Positions 1 to 16,020 of a stretch of DNA of 64,000 nt are shown here, one piece after another; the stretch's first letter is position 1, and each line of letters begins with the position of its first letter. A program made the position numbers and the translations under genes. A model generated the notes under the pieces. That model made no database searches. It saw only the letters and a list, made by a program, of their open reading frames with translations, and was not told the origin of the DNA. The stretch lies in NCBI GenBank assembly GCA_016783965.1, contig JADHVO010000006.1, positions 186,001 through 250,000 on the forward strand. The letters run 5' to 3'. Origin of the DNA: Alphaproteobacteria bacterium. Lineage in GTDB: Bacteria > Pseudomonadota > Alphaproteobacteria > Micropepsales > Micropepsaceae.

Positions 1-2915
1 AGCCGGAGTGTCTGGTAGTCGGCCAGCACATGTTCCTTGAGTGGCATGACCGGCAGCGGCGCGGTCTGTTCGGGCGGCAGCTCTTTTGTCCGCTGCACGT
101 CGAAGATCGGCAGCGTGTGCTGATCGGGAAGACGGCGCACCGCCCAGATCGCCTCGCGCCGGTCCATGCCGAGCGATCGGAACGCATCGGCGTCGGCCAG
201 GATCATCAGCGCCTTCTTCGGCAATTCCGTCCGCAGCACGAACCCGGCGAAGTCCGGATAGCCATAGCCGCGGTTATTTTCGATGAGGTTGGCGTCGGCT
301 TCCTTGAAACCGTCGATCTGGCGGAAGCCAAGGCGCAGCGCGAGAGCGCCGGACGTGTTGCGTTCCAGCTTGTTGTCCCAATCACTGTACGACATGTCGG
401 GCGGCAGCGCCTCGACATCGTGTTCGCGCGCATCGCGCACGATCTCGGCCGGGGCGTAGAAGCCCATGGGCTGCGAATTGAGCAGCGCGCAACCGAACGC
501 GGCGGGATGATAGAGCTTGATCCAGGACGAGATGTAGACGAGGTGGGCAAAGCTCGCGGCATGGCTTTCGGGAAAGCCATACGAACCGAAACCCTCGATC
601 TGCTTGAAGCAGCGTTCGGCGAATTCCAGCTCATAGCCGCGGCGCGTCATGCCGCTGATGAACTTGCCCTTGAAGCGGTCGATGGTGCCGAGATTGCGGA
701 AGGTCGCCATGGCGCGGCGCAGGCCGTTCGCTTCGTCCGGCGTGAACTTCGCGGCGACGATGGCAAGACGCATCGCCTGTTCCTGGAACAGCGGCACGCC
801 CATCGTTTCCTTCAGGACGTCCCGGAGTTCGTCCTTATGCCCGTGGTCGGGAAGAGGCGAAGGGAATTCGACCTTTTCCTTGCCGCTCCTCCGTCTGAGA
901 TAGGGATGCACCATGCCGCCCTGGATCGGGCCGGGGCGCACGATTGCGACCTCGACGACGAGGTCGTAGAACTTCCGCGGTCTGAGGCGCGGCAGCATGC
1001 TCATCTGCGCACGGCTTTCGACCTGGAACACACCGATGGCGTCGGCCTTGCACAGCATGTCGTAGACCGCCGGGTCCTCGCGCGGCACGGTCGCGAGGTC
1101 GTAGCGGCCGCCGCCGTGCAGGGCGATCAGGTCGAACGCCTTGCGAATGCAGGTCAGCATGCCGAGCGCCAGCACGTCGACTTTCAGCAGGCCGGCGGCG
1201 TCGAGATCGTCCTTGTCCCATTCGATGAAGTAGCGGTCGTCCATCGCCGCGGGGCCGATGGGAACGATGGTGTCGAGGTTGTCGTCGGTCAGCACGAAGC
1301 CGCCGACATGCTGCGACAGGTGCCGCGGAAAGCCCATGATCATGTTGGCGAAGTGCACTGACCGCGCGATGGCCAGGTTGTGCGGATCGAGACGGCCCTG
1401 CCGCACCTGGTTCTCCTTCATCTCCGAGCCCCAGCTGCCCCACACGCTGTTCGCCATCGAGGCGGTCAGGTCTTCCGAAAGACCGAACACCTTGCCGACC
1501 TCGCGGATGGCGCTGCGCGGGCGGTAGTGGATCACGGTCGCGGTCAGTGCCGCGCGATGATGGCCGTAGCGCTGGTAGACGTGCTGGATCACCTCCTCGC
1601 GCCGCTCGTGCTCGAAATCGACGTCGATGTCCGGCGGCTCGTTGCGCTCGACGGAGATGAAGCGCTCGAACAGAAGGTCGATCTGCATCGGATCGACGGC
1701 GGTCACGCCCAGGCAATAGCAGACGACCGAGTTGGCTGCGCTGCCGCGGCCCTGGCACAGGATGTGTTTGCTGCGTGCGTAGTGCACCAGATCGCGCACG
1801 GTCAGGAAGTAGTGCGCGTATTTCTGCTGCGCGATGACCGCGAGCTCTTTCTCGATCGACGCGCACACCTTTTCGGGAATGCCGTCCGGATAGCGTTGCG
1901 CGGCGCCTTCCCAGGCGAGGTCGTGCAGGTGCCCGTCGGCGGTTTTCCCCGGCGGCACGGGCTCATGGGGGTAGTTGTATTTTATCTGTTCGAGCGAGAA
2001 CGCGATGCGGCTCGCGAATTCCACCGTCTGTGCGATGGCGTCGGGGTGATTGCGGAAGAGGCGAACCATTTCGGCAGGCGTTTTCAGGTGCCGCTCGGCG
2101 TTGGCTTCCAGCAGCTTGCCGGCCTTGTCGATGGTGACGTGCTCGCGGATGCAGGTGACGACATCCTGCAATTCGCGGCGGCCGGCCTCGTGATAGAGCA
2201 CGTCGTTCACCGCCAGCAGCGGCACGCGGCATTCGCGCGCCAGCCGGTTGAGGCGGCGCAGGCGGCGCTTGTCGTCGCCGTGATAGAGCATCGATCCTGC
2301 AAGCCATACGCGGCCCGGCGCCATCGACCGCAACATCTTGAGAATTGATTTTACGGAATCGAGGGGTTCTTCGCGCGACGGCATCACGACGAACAGCAGG
2401 CCTTCATGGCGGGGATGCGTGTCGGCCGGCGTATGTCTTTCGGCGAGGTCGCTGAAAAACAGGGTGCACTCACCCTTGGTGGCGCGCCTGGCGCCTTCTG
2501 GAACGCGCTGTTTGCCGAAGGACAGCAGCTGGCAGAGCCGGCCATAGGCGGCGCGGTCGGTCGGATAGGCGAGGATGTCGGGCGTGCCGTCGGCGAAGAC
2601 GAGGCGGGCGCCGATCATCAGCTTCGGCTTCTTGTCCTTAAGGCGCGGGTCCTTGAGCGCAGCCCAGGCCCGCACCACGCCGGCCAGCGTGTTGCGGTCG
2701 GCGATGCCGATGGCTTCGTAGGCATAGGCATAGGCGGTGACCATCAACTCGTCCGGCTTCGATGCGCCGCGCAGGAACGAGAAGTTCGAGGTAACGGCAA
2801 TCTCCGCATAGGGCGGCTGGTTCTGAAGAACCGGAATCTCCTCATCCGGATCGGGGCCGGATTTGGGATCGCGCGCGTCGCTGCGCTGCCCGGCCGGTTT
2901 CATGCCGCCCTTCAT
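1..2915 (-). CDS. dnaE2: Error-prone DNA polymerase DnaE2 (3' end beyond the window)
   Basis: C-family DNA polymerase that, with ImuA and ImuB, carries out SOS-induced mutagenic translesion synthesis. About 971 codons are visible without interruption; the family is usually about 1,050-1,150 residues, so only the C-terminal part is missing past base 1. The N-terminus (YAEIAVTSNFSFLRGAS, about residues 40-56) begins the PHP domain. The polymerase acidic motif PDIDVDF lies at residues 428-434. The ATG at 2915 overlaps the imuB stop as ATGA, which favours this start and translational coupling; a second in-frame ATG lies at 2903. It is the last gene of an imuA-imuB-dnaE2 operon behind a LexA box. 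Family assignment is very secure; the catalytic role of DnaE2 in the mutasome is from family knowledge. Confidence 0.96.
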   Translation of the reverse strand, partial: MKGGMKPAGQRSDARDPKSGPDPDEEIPVLQNQPPYAEIAVTSNFSFLRGASKPDELMVTAYAYAYEAIGIADRNTLAGVVRAWAALKDPRLKDKKPKLMIGARLVFADGTPDILAYPTDRAAYGRLCQLLSFGKQRVPEGARRATKGECTLFFSDLAERHTPADTHPRHEGLLFVVMPSREEPLDSVKSILKMLRSMAPGRVWLAGSMLYHGDDKRRLRRLNRLARECRVPLLAVNDVLYHEAGRRELQDVVTCIREHVTIDKAGKLLEANAERHLKTPAEMVRLFRNHPDAIAQTVEFASRIAFSLEQIKYNYPHEPVPPGKTADGHLHDLAWEGAAQRYPDGIPEKVCASIEKELAVIAQQKYAHYFLTVRDLVHYARSKHILCQGRGSAANSVVCYCLGVTAVDPMQIDLLFERFISVERNEPPDIDVDFEHERREEVIQHVYQRYGHHRAALTATVIHYRPRSAIREVGKVFGLSEDLTASMANSVWGSWGSEMKENQVRQGRLDPHNLAIARSVHFANMIMGFPRHLSQHVGGFVLTDDNLDTIVPIGPAAMDDRYFIEWDKDDLDAAGLLKVDVLALGMLTCIRKAFDLIALHGGGRYDLATVPREDPAVYDMLCKADAIGVFQVESRAQMSMLPRLRPRKFYDLVVEVAIVRPGPIQGGMVHPYLRRRSGKEKVEFPSPLPDHGHKDELRDVLKETMGVPLFQEQAMRLAIVAAKFTPDEANGLRRAMATFRNLGTIDRFKGKFISGMTRRGYELEFAERCFKQIEGFGSYGFPESHAASFAHLVYISSWIKLYHPAAFGCALLNSQPMGFYAPAEIVRDAREHDVEALPPDMSYSDWDNKLERNTSGALALRLGFRQIDGFKEADANLIENNRGYGYPDFAGFVLRTELPKKALMILADADAFRSLGMDRREAIWAVRRLPDQHTLPIFDVQRTKELPPEQTAPLPVMPLKEHVLADYQTLR

Positions 2916-4441
2916 GCGAACAACCCATGCAGGAACCAGCGGCGCTCCGGCGCGCCGTGCATGTAGAGGCCTTCGCGGAACAGCCAGAAGCGCCGGCCGG
3001 CCTCATCCTCGACGCGGAAGTAATCGCGCGTCGGCTTATGGTCGTAGCTCTGCCACCATTCCATCGCGAGGCGCTCCGGTCCTTCGGCCCGTACCACGCG
3101 ATGCTGCACGTTGCGCCAGGTAAAGCGCGGCGGCGCGCCGTCGGGGACCGCGGCGCCGAATACGTCGATCGGCTCCGGCTTCTCGAACATGCGGATGGGG
3201 CGGCGCGGCGGGTCGACGTTGTTTCGCGCGTCCCACTTTATGTCTGTGTCGTCGGCGTGCTGCGCGGGAACGGCAACGCCGGCGGCTTCGGGGATATGGG
3301 TATCCTGCGGCTGGAAGAGGAGCATGCGATGCGAGCCGAAGCGCGCCGCCAGCCGGTCGATCAGATAGGCGATCTCCTTCTCCTCGTCCGGCCTGGCGTC
3401 CAGGCCGACGCTTTCCGGCACCTGGCGTTCGGTCTGCACCGCGGCCAGCCGCACCAGGTCGAATCCGAAACCGGGATCGAGCGGGTCGGTCAGCGCATCC
3501 AGCCGTGTACGGAACAATTTTGCGATTGTCGCGGGATCGCGCAGCGGGCGTGCGGTCTCGACCTCGATGCGGCGCACCTCGCCGTCGCTGCGGAAGAAGC
3601 TCGTTTCCAGCAGGCGCGCACCCTGGCCGCGCTCCTCCATCACTTCGCACAAAGATGCCGCGAGTTCTTGAATCTCACCGGCGATGAATTCCTCCGACAC
3701 CACCGGCTCGGCGAAGCGGCGTTCGGCGGAATAGGCCGGCAGGATGCGGCGCGGCGAGATCGGCTTTTCGCGCTTGCCGAGCGCACGTTCCAGCTTGAAC
3801 ACCATCTCCTTGCCGAAGCGCGCCATCAGCTCGTTGCGCATGCGCGCCGCCACCATGCCGATGGTCTTGAGGCCCGCGCGCACCAGCGCATGGGTGTCCT
3901 TTTCGTCGAGGTCGAGGGCGGCGGTGGGCAGCGGCGCGGTGGTGGCGGCCTCGTCGCCCGGCGCGGCGATGGTGCCGTCGGCGAAGCGGGCCAGCGCCCG
4001 GGCCGCCGCTTCCGTGCCGGCGATGGCGCCATGGCAGAGGAAGCCCTGCTTGCGGAACGCGCCGCGGATGGTGTCGAGCATCGCCTGCTCGCCGCCGAAC
4101 AGGTGATCGGCGCCGGTGATGTCGAGCAGCAATCCATGCGGCGGATCGAGCGCGACGAAGGGCGAATAGCGGTCGCACCAGTCGGCGATCGCTTCCAGCA
4201 TGGCGCGGTCGGCGGGAAGGTCGGCCTCCACCACATGCACGGCATTGACGACGGCGCGGGCGCTGGCGAGCGCCATGCCGACCTTCAGCCCGGCCCGGGC
4301 GGCGTTGATGTCGAGCGCGTAGACGATGCGGGCGTTCGCGTCTTTCAGGGACAGGACGACCGGTGTCTTATCCGGCGCGGCGCCAATCCCGGTCTTCCGC
4401 CTGAGCCGATCCGTCGGCAAGCGTGGCAGCCACAGGGCCAT
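2912..4441 (-). CDS. imuB: ImuB, inactive Y-family polymerase-like mutasome protein
   Basis: Y-family polymerase homologue (about 509 aa) that in characterised systems serves as a hub linking DnaE2 to the beta clamp and does not polymerise itself. The N-terminus MALWLPRLPTDRL is typical of ImuB and lacks the acidic metal-binding pattern of active Y-family enzymes. A palm-like stretch with LLLDITGADHLFGG follows, then helix-hairpin-helix and little-finger regions; the C-terminus ends GLFA. The start is uncertain: ATG 4441 gives the family-like N-terminus, while ATG 4483 would add 14 residues. Either way it overlaps the end of imuA (74 or 116 bases) and overlaps dnaE2 by ATGA. Expected to be LexA-repressed with its neighbours. 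Confidence 0.93.
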   Translation of the reverse strand: MALWLPRLPTDRLRRKTGIGAAPDKTPVVLSLKDANARIVYALDINAARAGLKVGMALASARAVVNAVHVVEADLPADRAMLEAIADWCDRYSPFVALDPPHGLLLDITGADHLFGGEQAMLDTIRGAFRKQGFLCHGAIAGTEAAARALARFADGTIAAPGDEAATTAPLPTAALDLDEKDTHALVRAGLKTIGMVAARMRNELMARFGKEMVFKLERALGKREKPISPRRILPAYSAERRFAEPVVSEEFIAGEIQELAASLCEVMEERGQGARLLETSFFRSDGEVRRIEVETARPLRDPATIAKLFRTRLDALTDPLDPGFGFDLVRLAAVQTERQVPESVGLDARPDEEKEIAYLIDRLAARFGSHRMLLFQPQDTHIPEAAGVAVPAQHADDTDIKWDARNNVDPPRRPIRMFEKPEPIDVFGAAVPDGAPPRFTWRNVQHRVVRAEGPERLAMEWWQSYDHKPTRDYFRVEDEAGRRFWLFREGLYMHGAPERRWFLHGLFA

Positions 4442-5165
4442 GATCCGTCGCCGGGTGACCGGCGGGCTTAGCAAAAACTCCATCGTCGCAATTCCATTCC
4501 ATTGCCCAGCGCCCGGTCTCTCCGTGCCGGTTGCGCACAAGGGCCGCGTCGAAACACGGGCGGCCCCAGTCTTCGTCATGCTCCGCCGAGACATGCGTGC
4601 GGATCGTCCAGCGCGTCTCCGTGGCACTCGGTTCGGGATGCGCGGAGGGGCGCAGCAGGATGGCGGTCACGCCCTTGTTCCGTGCGCCCAGCGTCAGCCT
4701 TCGCGTCGCGACCAGGTCGAGGATCTTCGGATTGCCCGGCACCTCCGCGATCACCGCGCCCAGCGCGATACAGGACAGCGCATCGGCCGCGGCCTTCAGA
4801 GCATCGGCGGCGTTCGCGGTGCGCAGAATCAGCACCGCCGACGGATCGATGCCGAGCTCGTTCAGCCCGGTCGGACAGATCTCGCCATGCTCCAGCGCGG
4901 CATAGTCCTGCCGGATCCAGAGAAGGCGCTTTTGACCCCGCACGCGCTGCGCCAGTCCCGCGGCGAAGCCGGATGCGGCGGCACTCATGTCGCCGGCGAA
5001 GACCTCATGCAGCACGCCGGGAAGGATGCCGCCGGGCAGCACCGCGTCGGCATCCGCGTGGCCGGTCGCGATAGCCGGCCGCTGCCGGCTCTCGCCCGAG
5101 ATGGGGTTGAGCAGGGCCCTCGTCCCTTCAAAGACGCCTTCGATCTTTCTGAGCAGCGAGTCCAT
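4368..5165 (-). CDS. imuA: ImuA, RecA/SulA-like mutasome protein
   Basis: ImuA family (265 aa), the first gene of the SOS mutagenesis cassette; RecA-fold protein without enzymatic function known to me. Seen: ADAVLPGGILPGVLHEVFA near residues 38-56 and RLLWIRQDYAALEHGEICP near 95-113, which are characteristic of alphaproteobacterial ImuA. The ATG at 5165 begins only 7 bases downstream of a LexA box, leaving little room for a Shine-Dalgarno, so a leaderless message or a slightly downstream start is possible. The 3' end overlaps imuB, consistent with translational coupling. Confidence 0.92.
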   Translation of the reverse strand: MDSLLRKIEGVFEGTRALLNPISGESRQRPAIATGHADADAVLPGGILPGVLHEVFAGDMSAAASGFAAGLAQRVRGQKRLLWIRQDYAALEHGEICPTGLNELGIDPSAVLILRTANAADALKAAADALSCIALGAVIAEVPGNPKILDLVATRRLTLGARNKGVTAILLRPSAHPEPSATETRWTIRTHVSAEHDEDWGRPCFDAALVRNRHGETGRWAMEWNCDDGVFAKPAGHPATDHGPVAATLADGSAQAEDRDWRRAG

Positions 5166-5248: not shown

Positions 5249-6013
5249 CTATTTTTCTGCGAAAAAGGTGCGCCGGGCCATGCACAAGCTCCGGAAACCC
5301 TCGGCGCTGTAGCGCACCAGCCGGGGCTCGATCTCGTCGAAATCCCCGGCATGGCAGAGCCCATTGGAGATGTGCTCGATCGCCCCGTTGGCCATGTTCA
5401 CGACCATGATGGAGCCGGAGAACATGTGATAGCCCCAGTAGAGGTCGACCTCCGCCACGTCGGGCATCGCCTCGCGCAGCATGCCGATCAGCCGCTTCAG
5501 CACCGGATCGAATTTCGCCGCGAATATCTCGGCCAGCTCCGGCGCGCTCGAGAGATTGCCGACGAAGGCGCAGAAATTGCGCCAGCCCTGGCCGCCCTGC
5601 CGGTTCAGCATGAACATCGGCCGCAAGTAGCAGGCGATGATCGATTCCAGCTCGTAATGGCCGGCGTTTTCGGCTTCGTAGCGGTCCATCTCCCGCATGC
5701 GTTCGGCATTCAGAGTGTCGGCACGCCTGGCGAACACGGCATCGAACACGCCGCGCTTGGACTCGAAGTAGTAATGCAACAGCGCGGTGTCGACGTTTGC
5801 GAGCTCCGCGATCTCGCGCATCGTTACGCCGTAAATGCCGTGCTTGGCGAAGAGCTCTTCCGCGGCATCCAGAATACGTTCGCTGGTGGCAAGGCTTCGT
5901 TGCGTGCGCCGGGAGGTCTTGTCCTCCAGCAATGCGCGTCGATATGGACGCCGGCTTCTACGCGCCGACCGGTCCCTCTCTTTACGCCCCGCAACAGGGG
6001 CCACTCCCTGCAT
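5249..6013 (-). CDS. TetR/AcrR family transcriptional regulator
   Basis: TetR-family repressor of 254 aa. The helix-turn-helix spans about residues 62-84 (VTMREIAELANVDTALLHYY followed by FESK), preceded by the usual helix (RILDAAEELFAKHG). The C-terminal ligand domain is helical and ends RRTFFAEK. The first 35 residues are Arg-rich and unlike a TetR N-terminus, so translation may really begin downstream (for example near residue 29). It is transcribed away from the TonB receptor gene. An 8-bp inverted repeat overlapping the annotated start (6013-6040) is a candidate autoregulatory operator. The ligand is unknown; control of the receptor is inference from position only. Confidence 0.85.
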   Translation of the reverse strand: MQGVAPVAGRKERDRSARRSRRPYRRALLEDKTSRRTQRSLATSERILDAAEELFAKHGIYGVTMREIAELANVDTALLHYYFESKRGVFDAVFARRADTLNAERMREMDRYEAENAGHYELESIIACYLRPMFMLNRQGGQGWRNFCAFVGNLSSAPELAEIFAAKFDPVLKRLIGMLREAMPDVAEVDLYWGYHMFSGSIMVVNMANGAIEHISNGLCHAGDFDEIEPRLVRYSAEGFRSLCMARRTFFAEK

Positions 6014-6040
6014 AATCGTTGCCCCCCAAAGGAACGATTA
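6013..6040. promoter_or_regulatory. Inverted repeat upstream of the TetR gene, candidate operator
   Basis: TAATCGTT (6013-6020) and AACGATTA (6033-6040) form a perfect 8-bp inverted repeat with a 12-bp spacer, at the start of the TetR gene. Size and position fit an autoregulatory TetR site; no other copy was seen in the window. Confidence 0.45.
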
Positions 6041-6222: not shown

Positions 6223-6240
6223 TTTTACTGATCGATGAAT
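6223..6240 (+). promoter_or_regulatory. Operator copy 1 (GATGAAT motif) upstream of the receptor
   Basis: TTTTACT-GATC-GATGAAT: the right arm GATGAAT matches the other three copies, while the left arm is weak. It ends 5 bases before TTGACA (6246-6251), the same offset as copy 3 to TTGACC. Confidence 0.5.
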
Positions 6241-6272
6241 TGCCTTTGACAACAAAATTGCCCGCAGGCATC

Positions 6273-6290
6273 ACTCATTGATCAATGAAT
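6273..6290 (+). promoter_or_regulatory. Operator copy 2 (GATGAAT motif) upstream of the receptor
   Basis: ACTCATT-GATC-AATGAAT contains the perfect palindrome TCATTGATCAATGA (6275-6288). It sits 50 bases downstream of copy 1, about where a -10 region or transcription start would lie, so occupancy should block the receptor promoter. Confidence 0.6.
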
Positions 6291-6332
6291 TATGGCGGGG
6301 AAAATCCGTCGCTCGTAGGGGAGGCTTCGCTC

Positions 6333-9300
6333 GTGTCGTTCAAGAGCAAATCAGCATTTGTCAGCGCACTTCTTGTTTCCACTGCTTTCACTGTTCCTGC
6401 CTTCGCACAGATCGAAACGGTGGTCGTCACCGCCGAGCGCAAGGCCGAAGACATCCAGACCGTTCCCGTCGCCGTCACCGCGCTGACCGGCGCCGATCTC
6501 AAGGCGAAGCAGGTCTATAGCTATCGCGACCTGCAGTTCCACGTTCCCTCCGTCACCTACACGAAGTCCAACTTCGGCGGCGCCCAGTTCCAGATCCGCG
6601 GCATCACCACCCAGTTCGGCCTCGGCGCGGCGATCGCGCAGAACGAGAACGACATCTATCTCGAGGCGCCGGCGCTGGTGAACGGCCAGTACTTCGACGT
6701 CGACCGCGTCGAAGTCGCGCGCGGCCCGCAGTCGACCTCGTACGGCCGTGCGGCCACCGGCGGTGCGGTGAACATCATCACCACCAAGCCGAACCTCGAC
6801 GAATTCCAGGCGCGCGTGAACTTCGACTACGGCAGCTACAACACGTTCAAGCCGGAAATGATGGTCAACATCCCGATCATCGACGGCGAGCTCGGCGTGC
6901 GCATCGCGGCTCTCGGCGTCTGGCACGACGGCTATGAGAAGAACTATTACGCCGGCCCCACCATCTACCCCGGTAACCTAGACAAGCGCATCAACGGCCA
7001 GGGCACCGCGTCGGGCCGCTTCTCGGTCCGCTGGCAGCCGAGCCAGGACACCACGGTCGACCTCGTCGCCGAGCTTGGCTACGAGAACGACAACCGCGTC
7101 CGCGGCGACAAGCAGCTCTGCCATCGCGATCCGTCGGGCGTGATCGGTTGCTTGCCCGATCAGCTCGGCACCCAGCCGTTGAACGTGCTCTCCACGCTCG
7201 GTGCGACGCTCGGCTCCAAGCAGGGCCTCGCTGCGCTGCTGAACCTTAAATTTAGCGTGCCTTTCGCCACGGCGCAGGCGATCGGCAACGGCCTTGGCCT
7301 CTTCCAGCTCGCCGGCAACGGCGGTCCGGGCGATCCCGCGGGTCCGGCTGCTGCTCTAGCATATCTTGGCGTCACGCAGGTTCCGAACGCCTTCTCGGGC
7401 GCGATGATTGCACCGGGCATCTTTGCGATGAACCCGCAGACCGTGAACGGTCTCGGTTCAGGCGCCGGCGGCGTCGTGCACCCCGATCTGCTGTCGGCCG
7501 ACACGGCGTTCAGCCCGAAGTTCAAGGGCTCGGGCCAGACCTACATGCTGAACTGGTCGCAGACCATCAACAGCTGGCTGAAGTCGACGGTCGATGTCGG
7601 CTATGTCACCGGCTATCAGTTCACGCAGCAGAACTACAATGACGCATCGCCTGAGAACATCAGCGCCCTAATCGCCCCCTCGGTGACCGCGTTCCACGCG
7701 TTCTTCGACACCAATTCCAACGCAACGGGCGCCTACAACCCGTACTTCTCCACGGCCGGTGCACTGCCGCTGTCCAACACCTACTACAACGGCAAGTTCG
7801 GCTCCTATGCGGGCATCATCGACCAGGCGCACGGTGTCCTGACGCGGACACCGTACTTCTCGGCCTACGACGAGGACCAGTTCTCGCAGCGCGAATGGAC
7901 AGGCGAACTCCGCTTCCAGACGTCGTTCGACGGCCCGTTCCAGCTGTCGGCCGGTGCGTTCTGGATGTCGTTCGACAGTCGCAACCAGTACTGGGTCGCG
8001 TCGAACGGCCTCGACTGGGAATCGATGGTGATCGGCGCGCTCGCCGGCCAGGCCAGCGGTACGCCGCTGATGCTCGCGTCGCCGACCTACGACGGCGAGT
8101 CTCGCCGCGGCGCCGTGCAGTCACGCTCGATCTTCCTGGAAGGCACCTATACGCTGATCCCCGACACGCTGAACATCATCGCCGGCGCGCGCTACAACGA
8201 CGACCGTTCGAGCGCCATCACCACGCCGATCGCGGTGGGCGGCCTGTTGCTCGCGAACCAGTCGGGCCTGGGCAACAACGGCTTCGTCACCGTGGGCGCG
8301 CAGACCTGCGCGAACCCCGGCGGCCTCCAGACGCCTAGCTCGAACTGCGTTGGCTGGCCAGGTACGTTCCGCCTGCCCACCGGTACGCTTGTCACCAAGG
8401 ATCTCAACAACGTCACCGACAAGTGGACCGGCCGCCTGACGATGAACTGGACGCCCAAGCTGAGCTGGACGGACCAGACCCTCGTCTATGCGACGCTGTC
8501 GCGCGGCGAACTCGCCGGCGGCGTGAACAAGGCGCAGGGCCTGACGGGTGCACTTGTGGTTCCGGTCGCCTATCAGCCGGCCACCGTCGACGCACTCGAA
8601 GTGGGCACCAAGAACACCCTGTTCGACGGCACCCTCCAGGCCAATCTCGACTTCTGGTACTACAACTACGAGAACTACCAGGTCGGCATCATCGACAACC
8701 GCGCGGCGCTCACCTTCAACATCCCGGCGCATCTGTACGGCGCGGAGGGCGAGTTCGTGTGGCAGCCGCAGGAAGACCTCGCGTTCAACCTGACGCTCAG
8801 CCTGACGCGCTCGCAGGCGGGCACCGCGTTCATCGTCGACCAGCGTAACCCGACGGCGAACCAGCCGAACTCGATCCTGATCAAGGATATGACCAACGGC
8901 TCGCTGTGCGTGATCCAGCCGCGCTCCGCTGCTGCTGCGGGCCATACGCCGGGCGAGTCGAACCCGGCGTTCCACGTGAACAACTTCTACCTGCCGAACG
9001 GCGGCAATGCGGCCATCGACGCGCCGTTCGGCGTGCCGCTGGTTAACTACGGCGTCTGCAACTCGGCACTGGAGCCGCTGCTGGAGGCTTCTGGCTTCCA
9101 GTATGCCCTGGATGCGTTCCCGAACGGCACGCTGTCGAGCAACCACAACGGCACCGGCATCGCGACCAACGTGAAGGGCAACAAGCTGCCGCTGGTCCCG
9201 AACGCGCAGGTCGGCGTGGGCGCCCAGTACACCTACCACTGGGACGACTACACGATCGTGCCGCGCGTCGACTACTACTGGCAGTCGAGCATGTATGCCC

Positions 9301-9530
9301 GCGTGAACAACGACAACGCGGACTACATCGGCGGCTGGGACACGATGAACGCCCAGATCCAGCTGAATCCGGCGGATTCGAAGTGGTACGCGCGCGTGTT
9401 CGCGACCAACGTGTTCGACAAGCACAACCCGACGGGCGAATACCTGACCGACCCGACCTCGGCGCTGTTCACCAATGTGTTCGCGGAAGACCCGCGCGTG
9501 GTGGGCATCTCGCTCGGCATGAACTGGTAA
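6333..9530 (+). CDS. TonB-dependent outer-membrane receptor
   Basis: Large outer-membrane receptor (1,065 aa) for TonB-driven import. The signal peptide is FKSKSAFVSALLVSTAFTVP followed by AFA; the mature protein starts with a TonB-box-like segment (ETVVVTAERK) and a plug domain, and ends in the barrel-terminal ISLGMNW with the usual C-terminal aromatic residue. I chose GTG 6333 because AGGGGAGG (6317-6324) is 8 bases upstream and the signal peptide then begins at once; an in-frame ATG at 6285 would put operator copy 2 inside the gene and add 16 non-signal residues. The substrate is unknown. The adjacent hydrolase, with the same operator pair, suggests a sulfate- or phosphonate/phosphate-ester compound (inference). 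A strong terminator follows. Confidence 0.94.
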   Translation: MSFKSKSAFVSALLVSTAFTVPAFAQIETVVVTAERKAEDIQTVPVAVTALTGADLKAKQVYSYRDLQFHVPSVTYTKSNFGGAQFQIRGITTQFGLGAAIAQNENDIYLEAPALVNGQYFDVDRVEVARGPQSTSYGRAATGGAVNIITTKPNLDEFQARVNFDYGSYNTFKPEMMVNIPIIDGELGVRIAALGVWHDGYEKNYYAGPTIYPGNLDKRINGQGTASGRFSVRWQPSQDTTVDLVAELGYENDNRVRGDKQLCHRDPSGVIGCLPDQLGTQPLNVLSTLGATLGSKQGLAALLNLKFSVPFATAQAIGNGLGLFQLAGNGGPGDPAGPAAALAYLGVTQVPNAFSGAMIAPGIFAMNPQTVNGLGSGAGGVVHPDLLSADTAFSPKFKGSGQTYMLNWSQTINSWLKSTVDVGYVTGYQFTQQNYNDASPENISALIAPSVTAFHAFFDTNSNATGAYNPYFSTAGALPLSNTYYNGKFGSYAGIIDQAHGVLTRTPYFSAYDEDQFSQREWTGELRFQTSFDGPFQLSAGAFWMSFDSRNQYWVASNGLDWESMVIGALAGQASGTPLMLASPTYDGESRRGAVQSRSIFLEGTYTLIPDTLNIIAGARYNDDRSSAITTPIAVGGLLLANQSGLGNNGFVTVGAQTCANPGGLQTPSSNCVGWPGTFRLPTGTLVTKDLNNVTDKWTGRLTMNWTPKLSWTDQTLVYATLSRGELAGGVNKAQGLTGALVVPVAYQPATVDALEVGTKNTLFDGTLQANLDFWYYNYENYQVGIIDNRAALTFNIPAHLYGAEGEFVWQPQEDLAFNLTLSLTRSQAGTAFIVDQRNPTANQPNSILIKDMTNGSLCVIQPRSAAAAGHTPGESNPAFHVNNFYLPNGGNAAIDAPFGVPLVNYGVCNSALEPLLEASGFQYALDAFPNGTLSSNHNGTGIATNVKGNKLPLVPNAQVGVGAQYTYHWDDYTIVPRVDYYWQSSMYARVNNDNADYIGGWDTMNAQIQLNPADSKWYARVFATNVFDKHNPTGEYLTDPTSALFTNVFAEDPRVVGISLGMNW

Positions 9531-9555
9531 GGCTCGGCCAAAGGCCAAAGAGCAA

Positions 9556-9581
9556 GGGCGCCGGTCTCCGGCGCCCTTTTT
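9556..9581 (+). terminator. Rho-independent terminator of the TonB receptor gene
   Basis: GGGCGCCGG-TCT-CCGGCGCCC is a perfect 9-bp stem (9556-9564 with 9568-9576) followed by five T residues (9577-9581), 26 bases after the receptor stop codon. Confidence 0.93.
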
Positions 9582-9625
9582 CCTTTACACGGCTGCGTTG
9601 CGCGCGGCGCCGTCTCGCGGATGCA

Positions 9626-9643
9626 ATTCACTAAGTGATGAAT
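9626..9643 (+). promoter_or_regulatory. Operator copy 3 (GATGAAT motif) upstream of the hydrolase
   Basis: ATTCACT-AAGT-GATGAAT: the same 7-4-7 layout as the receptor operators, with 5 of 7 left-arm positions matching the ideal ATTCATC. TTGACC begins 5 bases after it, the same offset as in the receptor promoter. Confidence 0.55.
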
Positions 9644-9672
9644 TTCATTTGACCTACGCGCGTCTCCATTGT

Positions 9673-9690
9673 ATTCATCAATCGATGAAT
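9673..9690 (+). promoter_or_regulatory. Operator copy 4 (GATGAAT motif) upstream of the hydrolase
   Basis: ATTCATC-AATC-GATGAAT has perfect 7-bp arms. It lies 47 bases downstream of copy 3 and overlaps the candidate -10 TATTCA, so binding should repress. Confidence 0.6.
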
Positions 9691-9906
9691 TTGCTGCGGA
9701 TGCGTGATCCGCCGCTGTTTGCCCGTCTGGCGGCGTACTACCCAGGTGCCCGACAGGTGGTGAAATCCCCCGGCCTGCGCTCCTCCTCGGGCAGGGCCGG
9801 GGGATGTTCTTCCCCGAACCGCGAATCACCGTTCGCCCTCTCGAATCCCGTTTGACCGCTCCCCTTCACAGGGCAATCTGCGCCCGCTGCGCGCAGGGAT
9901 GCCGTC

Positions 9907-11427
9907 ATGCCGTTGAATATCCTCTTCATCACGGCCGACCAGTGGCGGGCAGAGTGCCTGTCGGCGCTAGGCCATCCGGTGGTGCGGACTCCCAACCTGG
10001 ATGCGCTGGCGCGCGACGGCGTCCTGTTCGCCAACCATTTCGCCAACGCCGTGCCGTGCGGGCCGTCGCGCACCTCGCTCCACACCGGCATGTATCTCCA
10101 GAACCACCGCTCCGGCACCAACGGCACGCCGCTGGAGGCGCGCCACACCAACTGGGCCAGGGAAGCCGCCGCCATCGGCTACGACCCGGTGCTGTTCGGC
10201 TATACCGATACGAGCCTCGACCCGCGCGAGCTCCAGGAAGACGACCCGTGGCGCTTCACCTATGAGGGCCCGCTGCCAGGAATCCGCCCTCTCGTTCTGA
10301 TGGGCGACACACCCCGGCAATGGGTCGATTGGCTGCGGTCGCAGGGCTACAGGATCCCCGAGCCCATCCAGCGCGCCTATTCACTGCGGGCCGACGGGCC
10401 GGACTATGAGGATGGCGCATCAGTGCCCCGGCCGCTGGCAATGCCCAGCGAAGCCGACGACACCAACTGGCTCGCCGATCGCTGCATGGATTACATCCGC
10501 AACGCCGACGGTCCGTTCATTGCGCACCTGTCGATCCTGCGCCCGCATCCGCCCTTCGTCGCGCCCGAGCCCTACAACGCGATGTACGACCCGATGGCCG
10601 TGCCAGGATTCTCCCGCCTGGCGGCACCCGAAGACGAGGCTGCGCAGCACCCGTGGCTCGCGCATCAGCTCTCACGCCGCGCCTTCCGCGCGCCGGCGGT
10701 CGACAAGCGCCTGCGCCGGATGAAAGCGGTCTATTACGGCCTGATGCGCGAGGTCGACGACACGCTCGGCCGCGTCTTCGCCATGCTGAAAGAGACCGGC
10801 CGATGGGACGACACGATGATCGTGTTCACCTCCGACCATGGCGAGCAGATGGGCGACCACTGGCTGCTCGGCAAATGTGGCTATTTCGACGCGTCCTACC
10901 GCATCCCGCTGATCGTGCGCGATCCACGCCGCTCCGCCGACGCCGGGCGCGGGCAGGTCGTCACCCGCTTCACCGAGAACGTCGACATCATGCCCACGAT
11001 GCTGGAGGCGATCGGGGCGGAGATCCCGCTGCAATGCGACGGCCGCTCGCTAAGCCCGTTCCTCGAAGGCAAGGGCGCCCCCGAGACCTGGCGCACCGAG
11101 GCGCATTGGGAGTTCGACTTCCGCGATCCCGCCGACGACACCGCGGAGAAGGCGCTGGGCCTGACCATGCACCAGTGCAGCATGAACATCATCCGCGACG
11201 AGCGCTTCAAGTACGTTCACTTCACCAAGCTGCCGCCGCTGCTGTTCGACCTGCAAGAGGACCCCGGGGAATTCACCAATCTGGCGGGCGACCCCCGCTA
11301 TGTTTCAGTCATGCTGGAATATGCACAGAAGCTCCTCTCCTGGCGCATGAACCACGATGAGCAGGTTTTGACGCATATCTCGCTGACCCATAAAGGCCCG
11401 GTTTCCCGGCCTGTCGCCCGCTATTGA
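9907..11427 (+). CDS. Sulfatase / phosphonate monoester hydrolase (alkaline phosphatase superfamily)
   Basis: Hydrolase of 506 aa that cleaves sulfate, phosphonate or phosphate monoesters or diesters. The formylglycine signature CGPSR is at residues 51-55 (Cys51 is the residue to be oxidised). Metal-site residues are Asp11 (TADQW), Asp310 and His311 (SDHGEQMGDH), with Lys323 (LLGKCGY) and His214 (RPHPPF). The segments EFDFRD, KYVHFTKLPPLLFDL and FTNLA are very close to the phosphonate monoester hydrolase (PMH) branch, whose members are catalytically promiscuous. There is no signal peptide, so the enzyme is probably cytoplasmic. It has its own operator/promoter region and is followed 51 bases later by the ABC genes. 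An FGE that could activate Cys51 lies 5 kb downstream. The true substrate is unknown. Confidence 0.9.
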   Translation: MPLNILFITADQWRAECLSALGHPVVRTPNLDALARDGVLFANHFANAVPCGPSRTSLHTGMYLQNHRSGTNGTPLEARHTNWAREAAAIGYDPVLFGYTDTSLDPRELQEDDPWRFTYEGPLPGIRPLVLMGDTPRQWVDWLRSQGYRIPEPIQRAYSLRADGPDYEDGASVPRPLAMPSEADDTNWLADRCMDYIRNADGPFIAHLSILRPHPPFVAPEPYNAMYDPMAVPGFSRLAAPEDEAAQHPWLAHQLSRRAFRAPAVDKRLRRMKAVYYGLMREVDDTLGRVFAMLKETGRWDDTMIVFTSDHGEQMGDHWLLGKCGYFDASYRIPLIVRDPRRSADAGRGQVVTRFTENVDIMPTMLEAIGAEIPLQCDGRSLSPFLEGKGAPETWRTEAHWEFDFRDPADDTAEKALGLTMHQCSMNIIRDERFKYVHFTKLPPLLFDLQEDPGEFTNLAGDPRYVSVMLEYAQKLLSWRMNHDEQVLTHISLTHKGPVSRPVARY

Positions 11428-11478: not shown

Positions 11479-12357
11479 ATGCTGTCGATCCGGGATCTCA
11501 GCCACGTCTATCCGCGTGGCGTGCGTGCGCTTGACCATGTGAGCCTCGAAATCCCGCCCGGCATGTTCGGCCTGCTCGGCCCCAACGGCGCCGGGAAGTC
11601 GACCCTGATGCGGTGCATCGCGACGCTCCAGACGCCGACCAGCGGCGCCATCACATTCGACGGCATCGACGTGATCCGCGAGCCGGAGAAGCTCCGCCGC
11701 ACCCTCGGCTACCTGCCGCAGGATTTCGGCGTGTATCCGCGCGTCACCGCCTACGACATGCTCGACCATATGGCGGTGCTGAAGGGCGTCACCGGCCGCG
11801 GCGAACGGCGCGATACGGTCGAGGCGCTGCTCAACCAGGTCAATCTGTGGAGCGTGCGCAGGAAATCCATCGCGGGTTTCTCCGGCGGCATGCGGCAGCG
11901 CTTCGGCATCGCCCAGGCGCTGATCGGCCAGCCCAGGCTCCTGATCGTGGACGAGCCGACCGCCGGCCTCGACCCGGAGGAGCGCAACCGCTTTCTCAAC
12001 CTGCTCGCCGATGTCGGCGAGAACATCGTGGTGATCCTCTCCACCCATATCGTGGATGACGTATCCGACCTTTGCCCGCGCATGGCGATCATCGCCGAAG
12101 GCCGCATCGTGGGGCAGGGTTCGCCGGTCGAGCTCACGAACGCGCTCCAGGGCAAGGTCTGGAAGAAGACCATCGCCAAGGCAGAGCTTGAGGGCTGTCG
12201 CCAGAAATACACCGTGATCTCCACCCGCCTCGTCGGCGGCAACACCGTCGTGCACATCGTCGCCGACAGCGATCCAGGCAACGGCTTCGCGCCGGTCGAG
12301 GCGGGCCTGGAAGACGTCTACTTCTCGACGCTGGCCAAGTCCCGCAAGGCGGCCTGA
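11479..12357 (+). CDS. ABC transporter ATP-binding protein
   Basis: ABC-2-type ATPase of 292 aa. Walker A is GPNGAGKST (34-42), the ABC signature SGGMRQ is at 135-140, and Walker B LLIVDEP is at 154-160 followed by TAGLD. The C-terminal 60 residues form a small extra domain. The Shine-Dalgarno AAGGGG precedes the ATG. It is two bases ahead of the permease/peptidase fusion gene and almost certainly forms one transporter with it. The cargo is unknown. Confidence 0.94.
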   Translation: MLSIRDLSHVYPRGVRALDHVSLEIPPGMFGLLGPNGAGKSTLMRCIATLQTPTSGAITFDGIDVIREPEKLRRTLGYLPQDFGVYPRVTAYDMLDHMAVLKGVTGRGERRDTVEALLNQVNLWSVRRKSIAGFSGGMRQRFGIAQALIGQPRLLIVDEPTAGLDPEERNRFLNLLADVGENIVVILSTHIVDDVSDLCPRMAIIAEGRIVGQGSPVELTNALQGKVWKKTIAKAELEGCRQKYTVISTRLVGGNTVVHIVADSDPGNGFAPVEAGLEDVYFSTLAKSRKAA

Positions 12358-12359
12358 GC

Positions 12360-15300
12360 ATGTTCTTCAAGATCGCCGGGTTCGAAGCCCGCTACCAGAT
12401 GCGCTCCCCGGTGTTCTGGGTGGCCGGCCTCATCTTCTTCCTGCTGCCCTTTGCGGCCACGACCATCAGCCAGGTCCAGGTCGGCGGCGTCGGCAGTGTG
12501 TGGAAGAACTCGCCCTACGCCATCCTCCAGGTCAGCGGCGTGCTGGACGTGTTCTTCGTCTTCGCACTGATCGCCTTCGTGGCGAACATCATCGTGCGCG
12601 ACGACGAGACGGGCTATGGCCCGATCGTGCGCTCCACCCGCATCACGAAGTTCGATTACCTGTTCGGCCGCTTCACCGGCGCGTTCGGCGCCGGCATGGT
12701 GATGGCGCTCGCGATCCCGCTCGGGATCCTGGTCGGCTCGTTCATGCCCTGGATCGACCCCAAGCGCATCGGCCCCTTTCAGGCAGAGCATTACCTCTTC
12801 GACTACTTCGTGATGATGCTGCCGACGCTGTTCGTGCTGGCAGCGGCATTCTTTGCGCTCGCAACGGCGACGCGCTCGATGATGGCCACGTATGTCGGCG
12901 CGGTCGCGTTCCTCATAGGCTACCTGGTGCTGACGACACTGTTCCAGAAGCCGCAATACGACCACATCGTCGGCATCCTGGAACCGTTCGGCATGGGCGC
13001 GCTGGCGGAAATCGTGAAGTACTGGACGACGTCGGACCGCAACACGATGCTGCCGCCGCTGGCCGACGTGATGCTGATCAATCGCGCCATCTATCTGGGC
13101 CTCGCCTTCGTCCTGCTGGCCATCGCCTACTGGACCTACCGGTTCGAAGCGCGCGCCGGCAGCGCCGCCAGGCCCGAGAAGAAGGAAGCCGTCATCGTGC
13201 GTGCGCAGTCCGGGCCTCTGCCCGCGCCACACTTCGATGCAGGCAGCATCCGCGTCATGGCATTGAAATGGACCCGCTTCGAGATGGGGCAGGTGTTCAA
13301 GAGCCCGGCCTTCTTCGTGCTTCTGGCGCTCGGCCTGTTGAACGCGCTCGGCAGCCTGTTGTTCGTGGGTGAGCAGCGCGACTGGGTCGTGCTGCCGGTC
13401 ACCAACCTCACGATCGACGCGCTGAACGGCGCTTTCACCATCATCCCGCTGATTGTCGCGATCTACTACGCCGGCGAACTGGTGTGGCGCGAGCGCGACC
13501 GCCGCACGCACGAGGTGCTGGGCGCGGTACCCGTGCCGGATTGGGCGTTCGTGGTGCCGAAGATCGCCGCCATCACGCTGGTGCTTGTCTTCATGCTGGC
13601 GGTTTCGGTGCTGACCGCGATGATCGTGCAGGCGACCAAGAACTACACCGATTTCGAGATCTGGCACTACGCCGCCTGGTACGTCGTGCCGAACGCCATC
13701 GAGGCGGTGGAGCTCGCGGCGCTTGCGATCTTCGTGCAGACCGTGGTCTCGCACAAATACGTCGGCTGGGGCGTGATGGCGCTGGTGCTGGTGGCGCAGA
13801 TCACGCTGGGCAATCTCGGCTACGACCACCACCTCTACATCTACGGCTCCAGCTACAACGTTCCACTCTCCGACATGAACGGACAGGGGCAGTTCTGGAT
13901 CGGCCGTGCATGGTTCCAGGTCTACTGGCTGGCCTTCGCGCTGATCCTGTCGATCCTCGCCTATGGCCTGTGGCGGCGCGGAGCAGAGACCCGCTTCGTC
14001 CCGCGCCTCGCGCGTCTGCCGCGGCGCTTGCGCGGCTTCGCCGGCGTACTGATGGCGATGGCGGTGATCGTGTGGGCGGGCGCCGGCGCGTTCATCTATT
14101 ACAACACCGTCGTGCTCAACGAATACCGCAACAGCGTGGGCGACGAGGCGTGGACCGCAGACTACGAGCGCACGCTCTACAAATACCACACCATCCCGCA
14201 GCCCAAGGTGACGGACATCACGATGAATGTCGCGATCTATCCGCACGACATCCGCATAGTATCCGAGGGCCGCTATGCCATGGTGAATGCGACGGCCAAG
14301 CCGCTGACGGTGGTGCATGTGCGCTGGCCGCGCGAGCTGACCATGGAGTCGCTGTCGGTGTCGGGCGCCCATGTGCAGCAGCGCTTCGAGCGCTTCAACT
14401 ACGTCATCTATGCCTTCGACAAGCCGCTGCTTCCCGGCGAGAAGACGTCGCTCAGCTACCGCGCCGTCTGGCAGCAGAAGGGCTTCAAGAACAGCGCCAA
14501 CCTCACCCGTATCGTCGACAACGGCACCTTCGTGAACAACCAGGAGATCGCGCCGAACATCGGCATGGATCAGACGAACCTGCTGCGCGATCCGGTCAAG
14601 CGCCGCCGCCAGCATCTGGCCGGCGACATGCGTCCAGCCAAGCTGGACGATCCGGCCGCGCGCTACCAGGGACCGTTCGGCGGCGACACCAACTGGGTGA
14701 ATTCCGACATCACGGTCTCCACTGTGGCCGACCAGACGCCGATCGCGCCGGGCTACAAGGTGTCGGACGTCACGCGCGACGGCCGCCGCACCGCGCGCTT
14801 CAGGTCCGATGCGCCCGTTCTGGCCTTCTTCTCCATGCAGTCGGCGGCCTATGCGGAACGGCACGCCAAATGGCGCGACGTCGACCTGACGGTCTATTAC
14901 GATCCGCACCATCCCTATCAGGTCGACCGCATGCTCTCGTCGATGAAGGCCTCGCTGGAGGTTTTCGACGAGGCGTTTGGGCCCTACCAGTTCAAGCAGG
15001 CGCGCATTCTGGAATTCCCCGGCTATGCGACCTTCGCCCAGTCCTTCGCCAACACGATCCCGTTCTCGGAATCGATCGGCTTCATCCAGGATGACAATTC
15101 CTGGAAGGACGACCCGGAGAAGGTCGACCTCGTCACCTTCGTGACAGCGCATGAGCTGGGCCACCAGTGGTGGGGCCACCAGCTCACGTCGGCCAACATG
15201 CAGGGCGGCACCATGCTCGTCGAGACCATGGCGCAGTATTCCGCGATGCTGGTGATGGAGCATCTCTACGGGCCCGAGCATGTGCGCAAGTTTCTGAAAT

Positions 15301-15950
15301 CGGAGCTCGACGCCTATCTGCGCAGCCGCGGCAGCGAGGAAGTGGAAGAGTTGCCGCTCGACCGCGTCGAAGACCAGGGCTACATCCACTACCGCAAGGG
15401 CGCGGTGGTCATGTACCGCCTGAAGGAGACGGTGGGCGAAGCCGCCGTCGACCGCACGCTCCAGCGCCTGCTCAAGCAGTACGCGTTCAGGGGCGCGCCC
15501 TATCCGACCACGCGCGACTTCATCCGCATCGTGAAGGAGGAGAGCGGCCACAAGCACGATGCGATCATCGACGACCTTTTCGACCGGATCACGCTTTATG
15601 ACCTGAAGGCGACCGGCGCGACCTGGGTCAAGCGGCATGATGGCCGCTATGACGTGACGCTCACGGTCGATGCGCACAAATATTACGCCGACGGCAAGGG
15701 CAAGCAGACCGAGGCGAAGATGGCCGAGGACGTGAACATCGGCCTCTTCACCCTGAAGCCCAGCGCCGCCGGCTTCGGCAAGGCCAACGTGCTGAGCTAT
15801 GCGCCGATGCATATCGTCTCGGGCACGCAGTCTCTGCACCTCGTGACCGCCGCGCCGCCCAAGTTTGCGGGTATCGATCCCTACAATATGTGGATCGACC
15901 GCAACTCGGACGACAACACGATCGAGGCGACGCAGGCGGGCGGGAGCTGA
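12360..15950 (+). CDS. ABC-2 permease fused to an M1-family metallopeptidase
   Basis: Membrane protein of 1,196 aa. The N-terminal part (about 1-260) and middle part (about 290-590) carry two ABC-2-like transmembrane blocks, and a last helix lies near 560-580. The C-terminal half is a gluzincin peptidase of the M1 type, predicted on the periplasmic side: the zinc motif HELGH is at 931-935, the third ligand is probably Glu955 (VETMAQ), and YRKGAVVMYRL is in the region of the catalytic tyrosine. The partner ATPase is immediately upstream. This ABC-permease/M1 architecture recurs in Proteobacteria but its substrate is not established; coupling of export or extraction to peptide trimming is inference. 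Confidence 0.92.
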   Translation: MFFKIAGFEARYQMRSPVFWVAGLIFFLLPFAATTISQVQVGGVGSVWKNSPYAILQVSGVLDVFFVFALIAFVANIIVRDDETGYGPIVRSTRITKFDYLFGRFTGAFGAGMVMALAIPLGILVGSFMPWIDPKRIGPFQAEHYLFDYFVMMLPTLFVLAAAFFALATATRSMMATYVGAVAFLIGYLVLTTLFQKPQYDHIVGILEPFGMGALAEIVKYWTTSDRNTMLPPLADVMLINRAIYLGLAFVLLAIAYWTYRFEARAGSAARPEKKEAVIVRAQSGPLPAPHFDAGSIRVMALKWTRFEMGQVFKSPAFFVLLALGLLNALGSLLFVGEQRDWVVLPVTNLTIDALNGAFTIIPLIVAIYYAGELVWRERDRRTHEVLGAVPVPDWAFVVPKIAAITLVLVFMLAVSVLTAMIVQATKNYTDFEIWHYAAWYVVPNAIEAVELAALAIFVQTVVSHKYVGWGVMALVLVAQITLGNLGYDHHLYIYGSSYNVPLSDMNGQGQFWIGRAWFQVYWLAFALILSILAYGLWRRGAETRFVPRLARLPRRLRGFAGVLMAMAVIVWAGAGAFIYYNTVVLNEYRNSVGDEAWTADYERTLYKYHTIPQPKVTDITMNVAIYPHDIRIVSEGRYAMVNATAKPLTVVHVRWPRELTMESLSVSGAHVQQRFERFNYVIYAFDKPLLPGEKTSLSYRAVWQQKGFKNSANLTRIVDNGTFVNNQEIAPNIGMDQTNLLRDPVKRRRQHLAGDMRPAKLDDPAARYQGPFGGDTNWVNSDITVSTVADQTPIAPGYKVSDVTRDGRRTARFRSDAPVLAFFSMQSAAYAERHAKWRDVDLTVYYDPHHPYQVDRMLSSMKASLEVFDEAFGPYQFKQARILEFPGYATFAQSFANTIPFSESIGFIQDDNSWKDDPEKVDLVTFVTAHELGHQWWGHQLTSANMQGGTMLVETMAQYSAMLVMEHLYGPEHVRKFLKSELDAYLRSRGSEEVEELPLDRVEDQGYIHYRKGAVVMYRLKETVGEAAVDRTLQRLLKQYAFRGAPYPTTRDFIRIVKEESGHKHDAIIDDLFDRITLYDLKATGATWVKRHDGRYDVTLTVDAHKYYADGKGKQTEAKMAEDVNIGLFTLKPSAAGFGKANVLSYAPMHIVSGTQSLHLVTAAPPKFAGIDPYNMWIDRNSDDNTIEATQAGGS

Positions 15951-16020
15951 GGCGCACCGAAGTTGCTGGCGCCAATTCCCAATCTGGGCTAGCAAAAAGG
16001 GGCTTCCGGAGGAACCCGCC

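Follow-up and report, generated by a model that had tools for sequence, protein, structure and literature searches.

A conserved twin-operator promoter at a TonB-dependent receptor gene, shared by a sulfatase-superfamily gene and most likely run by a TetR-family regulator

The locus and its promoters

The region considered here is a 64,000-nucleotide stretch (the window) of an alphaproteobacterial genome (G000), corresponding to positions 186,001–250,000 of contig JADHVO010000006.1; coordinates refer to the window unless a locus is named. Within it, the gene for a TetR-family regulator (TetR1) diverges from that for a TonB-dependent receptor, which is followed by genes for a sulfatase-superfamily hydrolase (hereafter the sulfatase) and a second TetR (TetR2). 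Two pairs of 18-bp sites, here treated as putative operators, lie before the receptor and sulfatase genes. The relevant features are:

5249–6013, minus strand: TetR1, a TetR-family regulator with TetR_N and TetR_C_30 domains (Pfam), divergent from the receptor
6223–6240, plus strand: putative operator 1 of the receptor promoter; 3 of 7 arm positions pair, the left arm being weak; conserved in orthologs
6246–6251, plus strand: −35 hexamer TTGACA of the receptor promoter, within the 15-base block CTTTGACAACAAAAT, from ortholog comparison
6273–6290, plus strand: putative operator 2 of the receptor promoter, lying across the presumed −10/+1 (placed by a 17-nt spacer)
6333–9530, plus strand: TonB-dependent receptor (Pfam); start proposed at GTG 6333 instead of ATG 6285
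9547–9585, plus strand: terminator-like hairpin, then a T-rich stretch; an inverted repeat between receptor and sulfatase
9626–9643, plus strand: putative operator 1 of the sulfatase promoter; 5 of 7 pairs; conserved in orthologs
9649–9654, plus strand: −35 hexamer TTGACC of the sulfatase promoter, from ortholog alignment
9672–9677, plus strand: presumed −10 TATTCA of the sulfatase promoter, assigned by its 17-nt distance from the −35 and kept in a four-genome alignment
9673–9690, plus strand: putative operator 2 of the sulfatase promoter, with perfect arms, overlapping the presumed −10
9907–11427, plus strand: type I sulfatase-superfamily enzyme (Pfam), with a CGPSR active-site sequence
15955–16680, plus strand: TetR2, downstream of the sulfatase in six orthologous loci

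An initial annotation of this DNA had reported the four sites as two pairs spaced 50 and 47 bases start to start, with TTGAC at 6246 and 9649, five bases past the first site of each pair, and all of these coordinates were confirmed. The receptor-side sites read TTTTACT-GATC-GATGAAT (6223–6240) and ACTCATT-GATC-AATGAAT (6273–6290), and the sulfatase-side sites ATTCACT-AAGT-GATGAAT (9626–9643) and ATTCATC-AATC-GATGAAT (9673–9690). Their inverted-repeat symmetry is uneven, with 3, 6, 5, and 7 of the seven arm positions pairing at 6223, 6273, 9626, and 9673, respectively. Judged from the window alone, the sites stand barely above chance: the pattern ATTCATC-N4-GATGAAT with at most three mismatches yields 4 matches where 1.53 are expected, a count that 4 of 100 dinucleotide shuffles also attain. 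These four matches omit the site at 6223, and the match at 57041 resembles noise. A matrix built from the four sites scores them at 24.5–30.0 bits and the best non-overlapping place in the window at 8.3 bits, a comparison that is circular as a test. The sites are therefore held to be real because they are conserved in relatives, and not because of window statistics.

The annotation had further stated that neither TetR gene has the motif upstream. This was mistaken for TetR1, since the region upstream of that gene is the receptor intergenic region, which holds two of the sites; a matrix scan of the window found no site upstream of TetR2. TetR1 matches TetR_N at 59.0 bits (cut-off 24) and TetR_C_30 at 91.9 bits (cut-off 26.3), and its recognition helix reads NVDTALLHYYF. 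An inverted repeat, TAATCGTT-N12-AACGATTA, surrounds the TetR1 start (6013–6040) and is kept in G022, G028, and G029, apparently not in G077.

The receptor probably starts at GTG 6333 and not at ATG 6285, which lies inside site 2; a ribosome-binding site AGGGGAG (6317–6323) and GTG 6333 are kept in orthologs, with AGGGGG in G077. With this start, both operators would lie upstream of the receptor gene. In the receptor promoter, operator 2 begins within the hexamer that, by its position, would correspond to the −10. The hairpin at 9547–9585 separates the receptor and sulfatase genes into two units, which suggests a separate promoter for sulfatase transcription; a GGGCGCCGG hairpin is likewise visible in the aligned sequences of G022, G028, and G029.

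Conservation within the genus

Orthologs of TetR1 are present in six of 69 same-genus genomes (E ≤ 1e−90): G000, G022, G028, G029, G077, and G083. G022, G028, G029, and G083 retain the gene order TetR1–receptor–sulfatase. All six genomes keep the receptor-promoter sites, before the receptor or its remnant, with a spacing of 50 in five; in G077 the best register gives a spacing of 55 with TTGAC 10 bases on, and an overlapping weaker register (15.3 bits) gives 51 and 6. Before the sulfatase, all six have at least one site of at least 15 bits. The spacing there is 47 in G000, G022, G028, and G029 and 46 in G083; the upstream site of G028 scores below 15 bits and was placed by alignment, and in G077 one site reaches 15 bits. 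Among the ten pairs in which both sites reach at least 15 bits, eight have TTGAC 5 bases past the first site, the exceptions being 4 bases (G083 sulfatase) and 10 bases (G077). The CTTTGACAACAAAAT block is invariant in G000, G022, G028, G029, and G083 and carries a single substitution in G077. The flanks have diverged among these relatives, and the sites, CTTTGACAACAAAAT, and TTGACC stand out from them. Sulfatase orthologs in G004, G013, G035, and G075 (72–79% identical), genomes with no TetR1 ortholog, have no 15-bit site within the 19.9 kb fetched.

Comparison of the orthologous upstream regions thus bears out the sites, and it supports the proposal that a shared promoter layout ties the TonB receptor and the hydrolase to one regulator. 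The accompanying idea of a duplicated promoter module gains no such support; beyond the sites and TTGAC the two promoters share little, and because distant relatives show the same layout (below), their likeness could stem from constraint as well.

In G077 (L161 9240–9500) the receptor gene has been lost; the beginning of its coding region is still present ahead of the sulfatase, as is its promoter, complete with both operators.

TetR1 homologs beyond the genus

TetR1 was aligned with four relatives, and a scan across named genomes with this alignment yielded 39 loci, including representatives of Phenylobacterium, Caulobacter, and Brevundimonas as well as the gammaproteobacteria Steroidobacter, Povalibacter, and Spongiibacter (class checked). 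A receptor-like open reading frame (ORF) lies within the fetched stretch in 34 of the 37 loci L123–L159. A scoring matrix made from seven sites of this genome only was applied upstream of the TetR and receptor genes in non-orthologous homolog loci. In total, 52 loci were scored, leaving out the orthologs (L053–L055, L160, L161), the copies L121, L122, and L159 (of G077, G022, and G049), and L123, in which the TetR ORF was not recovered.

Loci whose homolog carries the helix VDTALL reach at least 17 bits in 29 of 36 cases, against 1 of 16 loci with other helices (P 5e−7), when receptors are assigned by text pattern. In L067 the pattern selected the wrong ORF; BLAST assignment of the receptors gives counts of 28 of 36 and 1 of 16 (P 1.4e−6). 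Spacing is similarly specific. Allowing at most one mismatch, ATTCA-Nk-TGAAT occurs at k = 8 in 31 of the 36 VDTALL loci, and at k = 4 in 15 and k = 12 in 12, in either case through a shift of the register by 4. The remaining values of k between 2 and 16 each give at most 2 loci.

The promoter layout also recurs. Across the whole of 37 distant loci (L056 and L123–L158; the helix of L123 was not read), TTGAC begins 1–6 nt after a 17-bit site in 24, against a background of 0.5% per 12-nt window with two windows per site. Two sites 55–61 apart are found in ten of the 37, and in nine of these ten TTGAC lies just behind the upstream one. No TetR2 or sulfatase match (E ≤ 1e−8) was found in the distant loci within the stretches fetched. 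The twin-operator promoter is not a local oddity, and Steroidobacteraceae loci share its layout.

Several receptors next to TetR homologs of the VHTSL helix type are preceded by related palindromes, which have ATTCA/TGAAT half-sites and a CAC..GTG-like center (L067 14094–14115, L064 5682, L057 14622, L059 14848, and L066 6959) and possibly constitute a second operator class.

Further sites and receptors

At no more than two mismatches the motif occurs in 39 places in the genome, four of which are the window sites. The genome has 17 TonB plug-domain matches, 16 besides that of the window receptor, and three of the 35 other places (on C5, C7, and C11) fall within 800 bp upstream of one of these 16 (0.10 expected, P 1.8e−4). 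A genome-wide scan had been proposed as a check on random scatter; its outcome did not refute the proposal, the unlinked copies being enriched upstream of receptors. With these three receptors also having a site, the suggestion that the module serves one nutrient is a guess.

The receptor on C5 shares 78% identity with that of the window, and its locus (L016) encodes a DsbA-like protein, a rhomboid protein, and the receptor (Pfam). Counterparts of this locus with a site before the receptor were found in G022, G083, and G029, where the receptor is 73%, 65%, and 40% identical to that of C5, and in G077, where the receptor is nearest to that of C7 (50%); in these four genomes, the ones covered for this locus, the neighbors were recognized by sequence only. 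The DsbA-like/rhomboid/receptor locus with its operator (L016, L194–L197) is thus kept in five genomes around a receptor that is strongly diverged or of another type. Eighteen further stretches around motif places were fetched from G022, G028, G029, G077, G083, and G014. Five have a 19.5-bit site at a receptor (L194–L197, L201), in another three a site of this score has no adjacent receptor (L198, L200, L206), and ten have no 19.5-bit site; L200 is from G014, which is without TetR1, and its site falls inside a long ORF.

The C7 receptor, which has a site, also has another TetR gene (TetR_N) divergent from it (L017 8550–9260), and may answer to two regulators.

Proposed regulation and alternatives

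These data most likely reflect a real, conserved twin-operator module of a TonB receptor gene, run by a TetR-family protein and shared in this genus by the sulfatase gene. TetR1 is most likely the owner of all four sites, whose location and conservation are consistent with a trait of its family, a palindromic operator in or near the divergent target promoter. The suggestion that the regulator may lie elsewhere is not supported; synteny and the repeated presence of sites beside its homologs make the divergent TetR1 the best candidate. We consider it probable that a TetR1 dimer holds both promoters through the twin operators until a small molecule releases it. The dimer would bind ATTCA-N8-TGAAT palindromes, one ending 5 bases upstream of the −35 of each promoter and the other lying over the −10/start region; so bound, it would clamp the promoter and keep receptor and sulfatase off. 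Both genes would be turned on when TetR1 is released by a small molecule, probably either a hydrolase product or the substrate that the receptor imports, and single operators before unlinked TonB receptors would join those receptors to the regulon.

Several observations weigh against this reading or qualify it. The site at 6223 is a poor palindrome, owing to its weak left arm. Raw site counts per genome overlap, with 6–10 in TetR1 genomes and 7 in G061 and G014, which have no TetR1; some places in this genome do not precede receptors (for example C1:271958, with one mismatch, and C15:323089), and a reversed-pattern control yields 11 places against 39. Among homolog loci, 7 or 8 of the 36 with VDTALL miss 17 bits, a cut-off chosen after first looks, and in 5 of the 16 with other helices the fetched stretch has no receptor match, so that the receptor promoter went unscored. 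The loci are phylogenetically clustered, and the P values ignore kinship. Overall identity to TetR1 also differs slightly between the groups (39–48% with VDTALL, 35–43% with other helices), and the association with the helix is unclean when half-sites only are counted (ATTCA-N8-TGAAT with at most one mismatch; 31 of 36 against 7 of 16, P 0.005). Moreover, in G028 the receptor that adjoins a VHTSLM homolog is preceded, at a distance of some 90 bases, by ATTCATTCACATGTGAATGAAT (L067 14094), and ATTCGCGTGTGAATGAAT is found in G029 (L064 5682), a locus with another helix.

A strict rule, by which the VDTALL helix has the site and other helices none, was accordingly softened, given the related palindromes beside several other-helix homologs. 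The half-site seems to be family-wide, with a center that differs in a sister group, which weakens a rule based on the helix alone; family-wide ATTCA/TGAAT half-sites would in turn support ownership by the TetR1 family.

One rather unlikely alternative keeps TetR1 as the binding protein and has the upstream operator activate, or act both ways, with only the downstream operator repressing. Some regulators activate from an operator next to the −35, the commonest arrangement in the distant loci, which is a further point against simple repression. Where a distant locus has a site just upstream of TTGAC, no second 15-bit site lies 40–65 bp away in 14 of 24 cases; the operator ends 1–6 nt upstream of TTGAC, which would place its center near −47 to −51. 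However, TetR-family proteins are mostly repressors, operator 2 would overlap the presumed −10/+1 in both window promoters, and a dimer so near the −35 should hinder polymerase too.

It is quite improbable that the sites belong to a different protein, whether TetR2 (15955–16680) or a regulator encoded elsewhere. TetR2 does accompany the sulfatase in the six orthologous loci, and the unlinked receptors have sites without an adjoining TetR1-like gene, that of C7 having its own divergent TetR. Yet the motif recurs beside TetR1 homologs, the distant motif loci contain such a homolog and no TetR2 match, and TetR2 has no upstream site in the window. That the sites are chance AT-rich palindromes in promoters is scarcely credible and was rejected on conservation: the shuffle test, 4 of 100 reaching the observed count, is weak and insufficient on its own, but genomes with diverged flanks retain the sites together with their spacing and TTGAC offset, and TetR1 homologs in other classes have the sites next to them at a single fixed spacing.

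A conserved hairpin in the presumed sulfatase leader

A further conserved feature separates the sulfatase promoter from the start of the gene:

9735–9816, plus strand: leader element consisting of CCCAGG, then a strong, near-invariant hairpin (9765–9806) with an invariant GCTCCTCCTCGGGCA top

The exact 18-mer top occurs once in this genome, and exact copies are present in four of 96 family genomes, all with TetR1. A model (R1) was built from the six TetR1 genomes and used in two genome searches, both with strict filters that scored few candidates per genome. At E ≤ 0.05 it matched seven of the 69 genus genomes, six strongly (the TetR1 six) and one weakly (G012, E 0.03); at E ≤ 0.001 it matched one of 385 class genomes, its own. 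No R1 match was found in the four sulfatase loci without TetR1. Rfam gave no match at its gathering score in the window, and only matches below that score in 9531–9910. Covariation is slight: two-sided changes affect 3 of 23 predicted pairs, one in the main stem (G-C/G-U/A-U) and two in weak outer pairs that are broken in other sequences, and the covariation term is only −0.39.

Several identities for the element were rejected. It is not a dispersed repeat, since the exact top occurs once in the genome; nor a short coding sequence, because CCCAGG and the hairpin stand one base closer or farther apart from genome to genome, so that no frame is kept; nor a known RNA, given the lack of an Rfam match at gathering score; nor, as far as the strictly filtered searches go, a widespread one, given the R1 matches in one of 385 class genomes and strong ones in six of 69 genus genomes. 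Among a leader RNA, a DNA site (for example for TetR2), and a small RNA, a leader RNA seems likeliest.

The predicted fold shows a CUCCUC loop. In this it resembles the "cuckoo" RNAs of Rhodobacter, which have CCUCCUCCC loops, a resemblance that is a lead only; unlike them, the element is a single copy in an mRNA leader, with no Rfam match at gathering score. It is possible, and we propose it tentatively, that the locus combines two layers, an undescribed, cross-class family of dedicated TonB-receptor regulators using ATTCA/TGAAT operators and, in this genus, a new cis-acting RNA on a captured sulfatase. In the first layer, many family members would have the fixed operator/−35/operator promoter. 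In the second, the invariant GCUCCUCCUCGGGCA hairpin top, with its anti-Shine-Dalgarno-like loop, would add control after initiation, for example by substrate sensing or by pairing with GGGGAG-type ribosome-binding sites of co-regulated receptor mRNAs. The leader hairpin, which is genus-specific, could be a new cis-regulatory RNA and is open to testing as such.

Relation to known systems

The closest solved relatives of TetR1 are PDB 5fhp, NicR (E 2.7e−25), and 2fbq (E 1.7e−17), which we take to be PsrA. By sequence, they place it near the NicR/PsrA branch of TetR-family catabolic repressors; against the NCBIfam PsrA equivalog TetR1 scores 85.2 bits, below the cut-off of 300. The presumed targets here, TonB receptors, set it apart from that branch. 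In the passages available of a study of NicR2, a nicotine regulator, its inverted repeats are common to two promoters, its site overlaps the −35/−10, and the repeats are CTATATGTACAGCCATATAA-like (PMC6550519). As quoted in those passages, the repeats are by eye unlike ATTCA-N8-TGAAT, a comparison that concerns NicR2 and not the NicR of 5fhp (PMC6550519).

Coupling of uptake and catabolism of one compound by a repressor is described, in the portions seen of the report, for PheR of Sphingobium; PheR differs in belonging to the IclR family and in its core motif GCAACG (PMC13273656). TonB receptors have been assigned to catabolic regulons by shared operators in the case of HutC, NagR, and HypR, and the main-text passages of that survey do not describe the TetR groups FabR, FadP, LiuQ, PsrA, and RutR as dedicated receptor regulators (PMC5343134). 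A literature search found no description of the operator, regulon, or leader hairpin, most subscription papers being outside its coverage. The kind of system is familiar and is newly delimited here; the hairpin is its stranger part.

Many Alpha- and Gammaproteobacteria have large numbers of TonB receptors, most of them without an assignment. If a family of regulators places a legible operator next to its receptor, regulons, and hence candidate substrates, can be proposed from sequence.

The hydrolase and neighboring genes

The hydrolase matches the Sulfatase domain at 153.6 bits (cut-off 25). Its CGPSR sequence, at residues 51–55, corresponds to the formylglycine signature of type I sulfatases, C-x-P-S-R. 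Its best PDB relatives are the phosphonate monoester hydrolases 4uph (E 4.6e−153) and 2vqr (E 5.8e−145), members with PehA of the same superfamily; against the NCBIfam model of the PehA phosphoric/sulfuric ester hydrolase it scores 596.4 bits, below the cut-off of 900.

Downstream, window positions 11479–15950 encode an ABC ATPase and then a protein of 1196 aa that combines ABC-2 permease with M1 peptidase domains; relatives of these genes were not seen in the G028, G029, and G077 stretches and are present in the G022 and G083 loci. On the other side of the locus, two minus-strand ORFs (2912–5165) resemble what we take, by recognition, to be ImuB and ImuA, and presumed ImuB-like ORFs, likewise recognized, also flank the locus in G022, G029, and G077.

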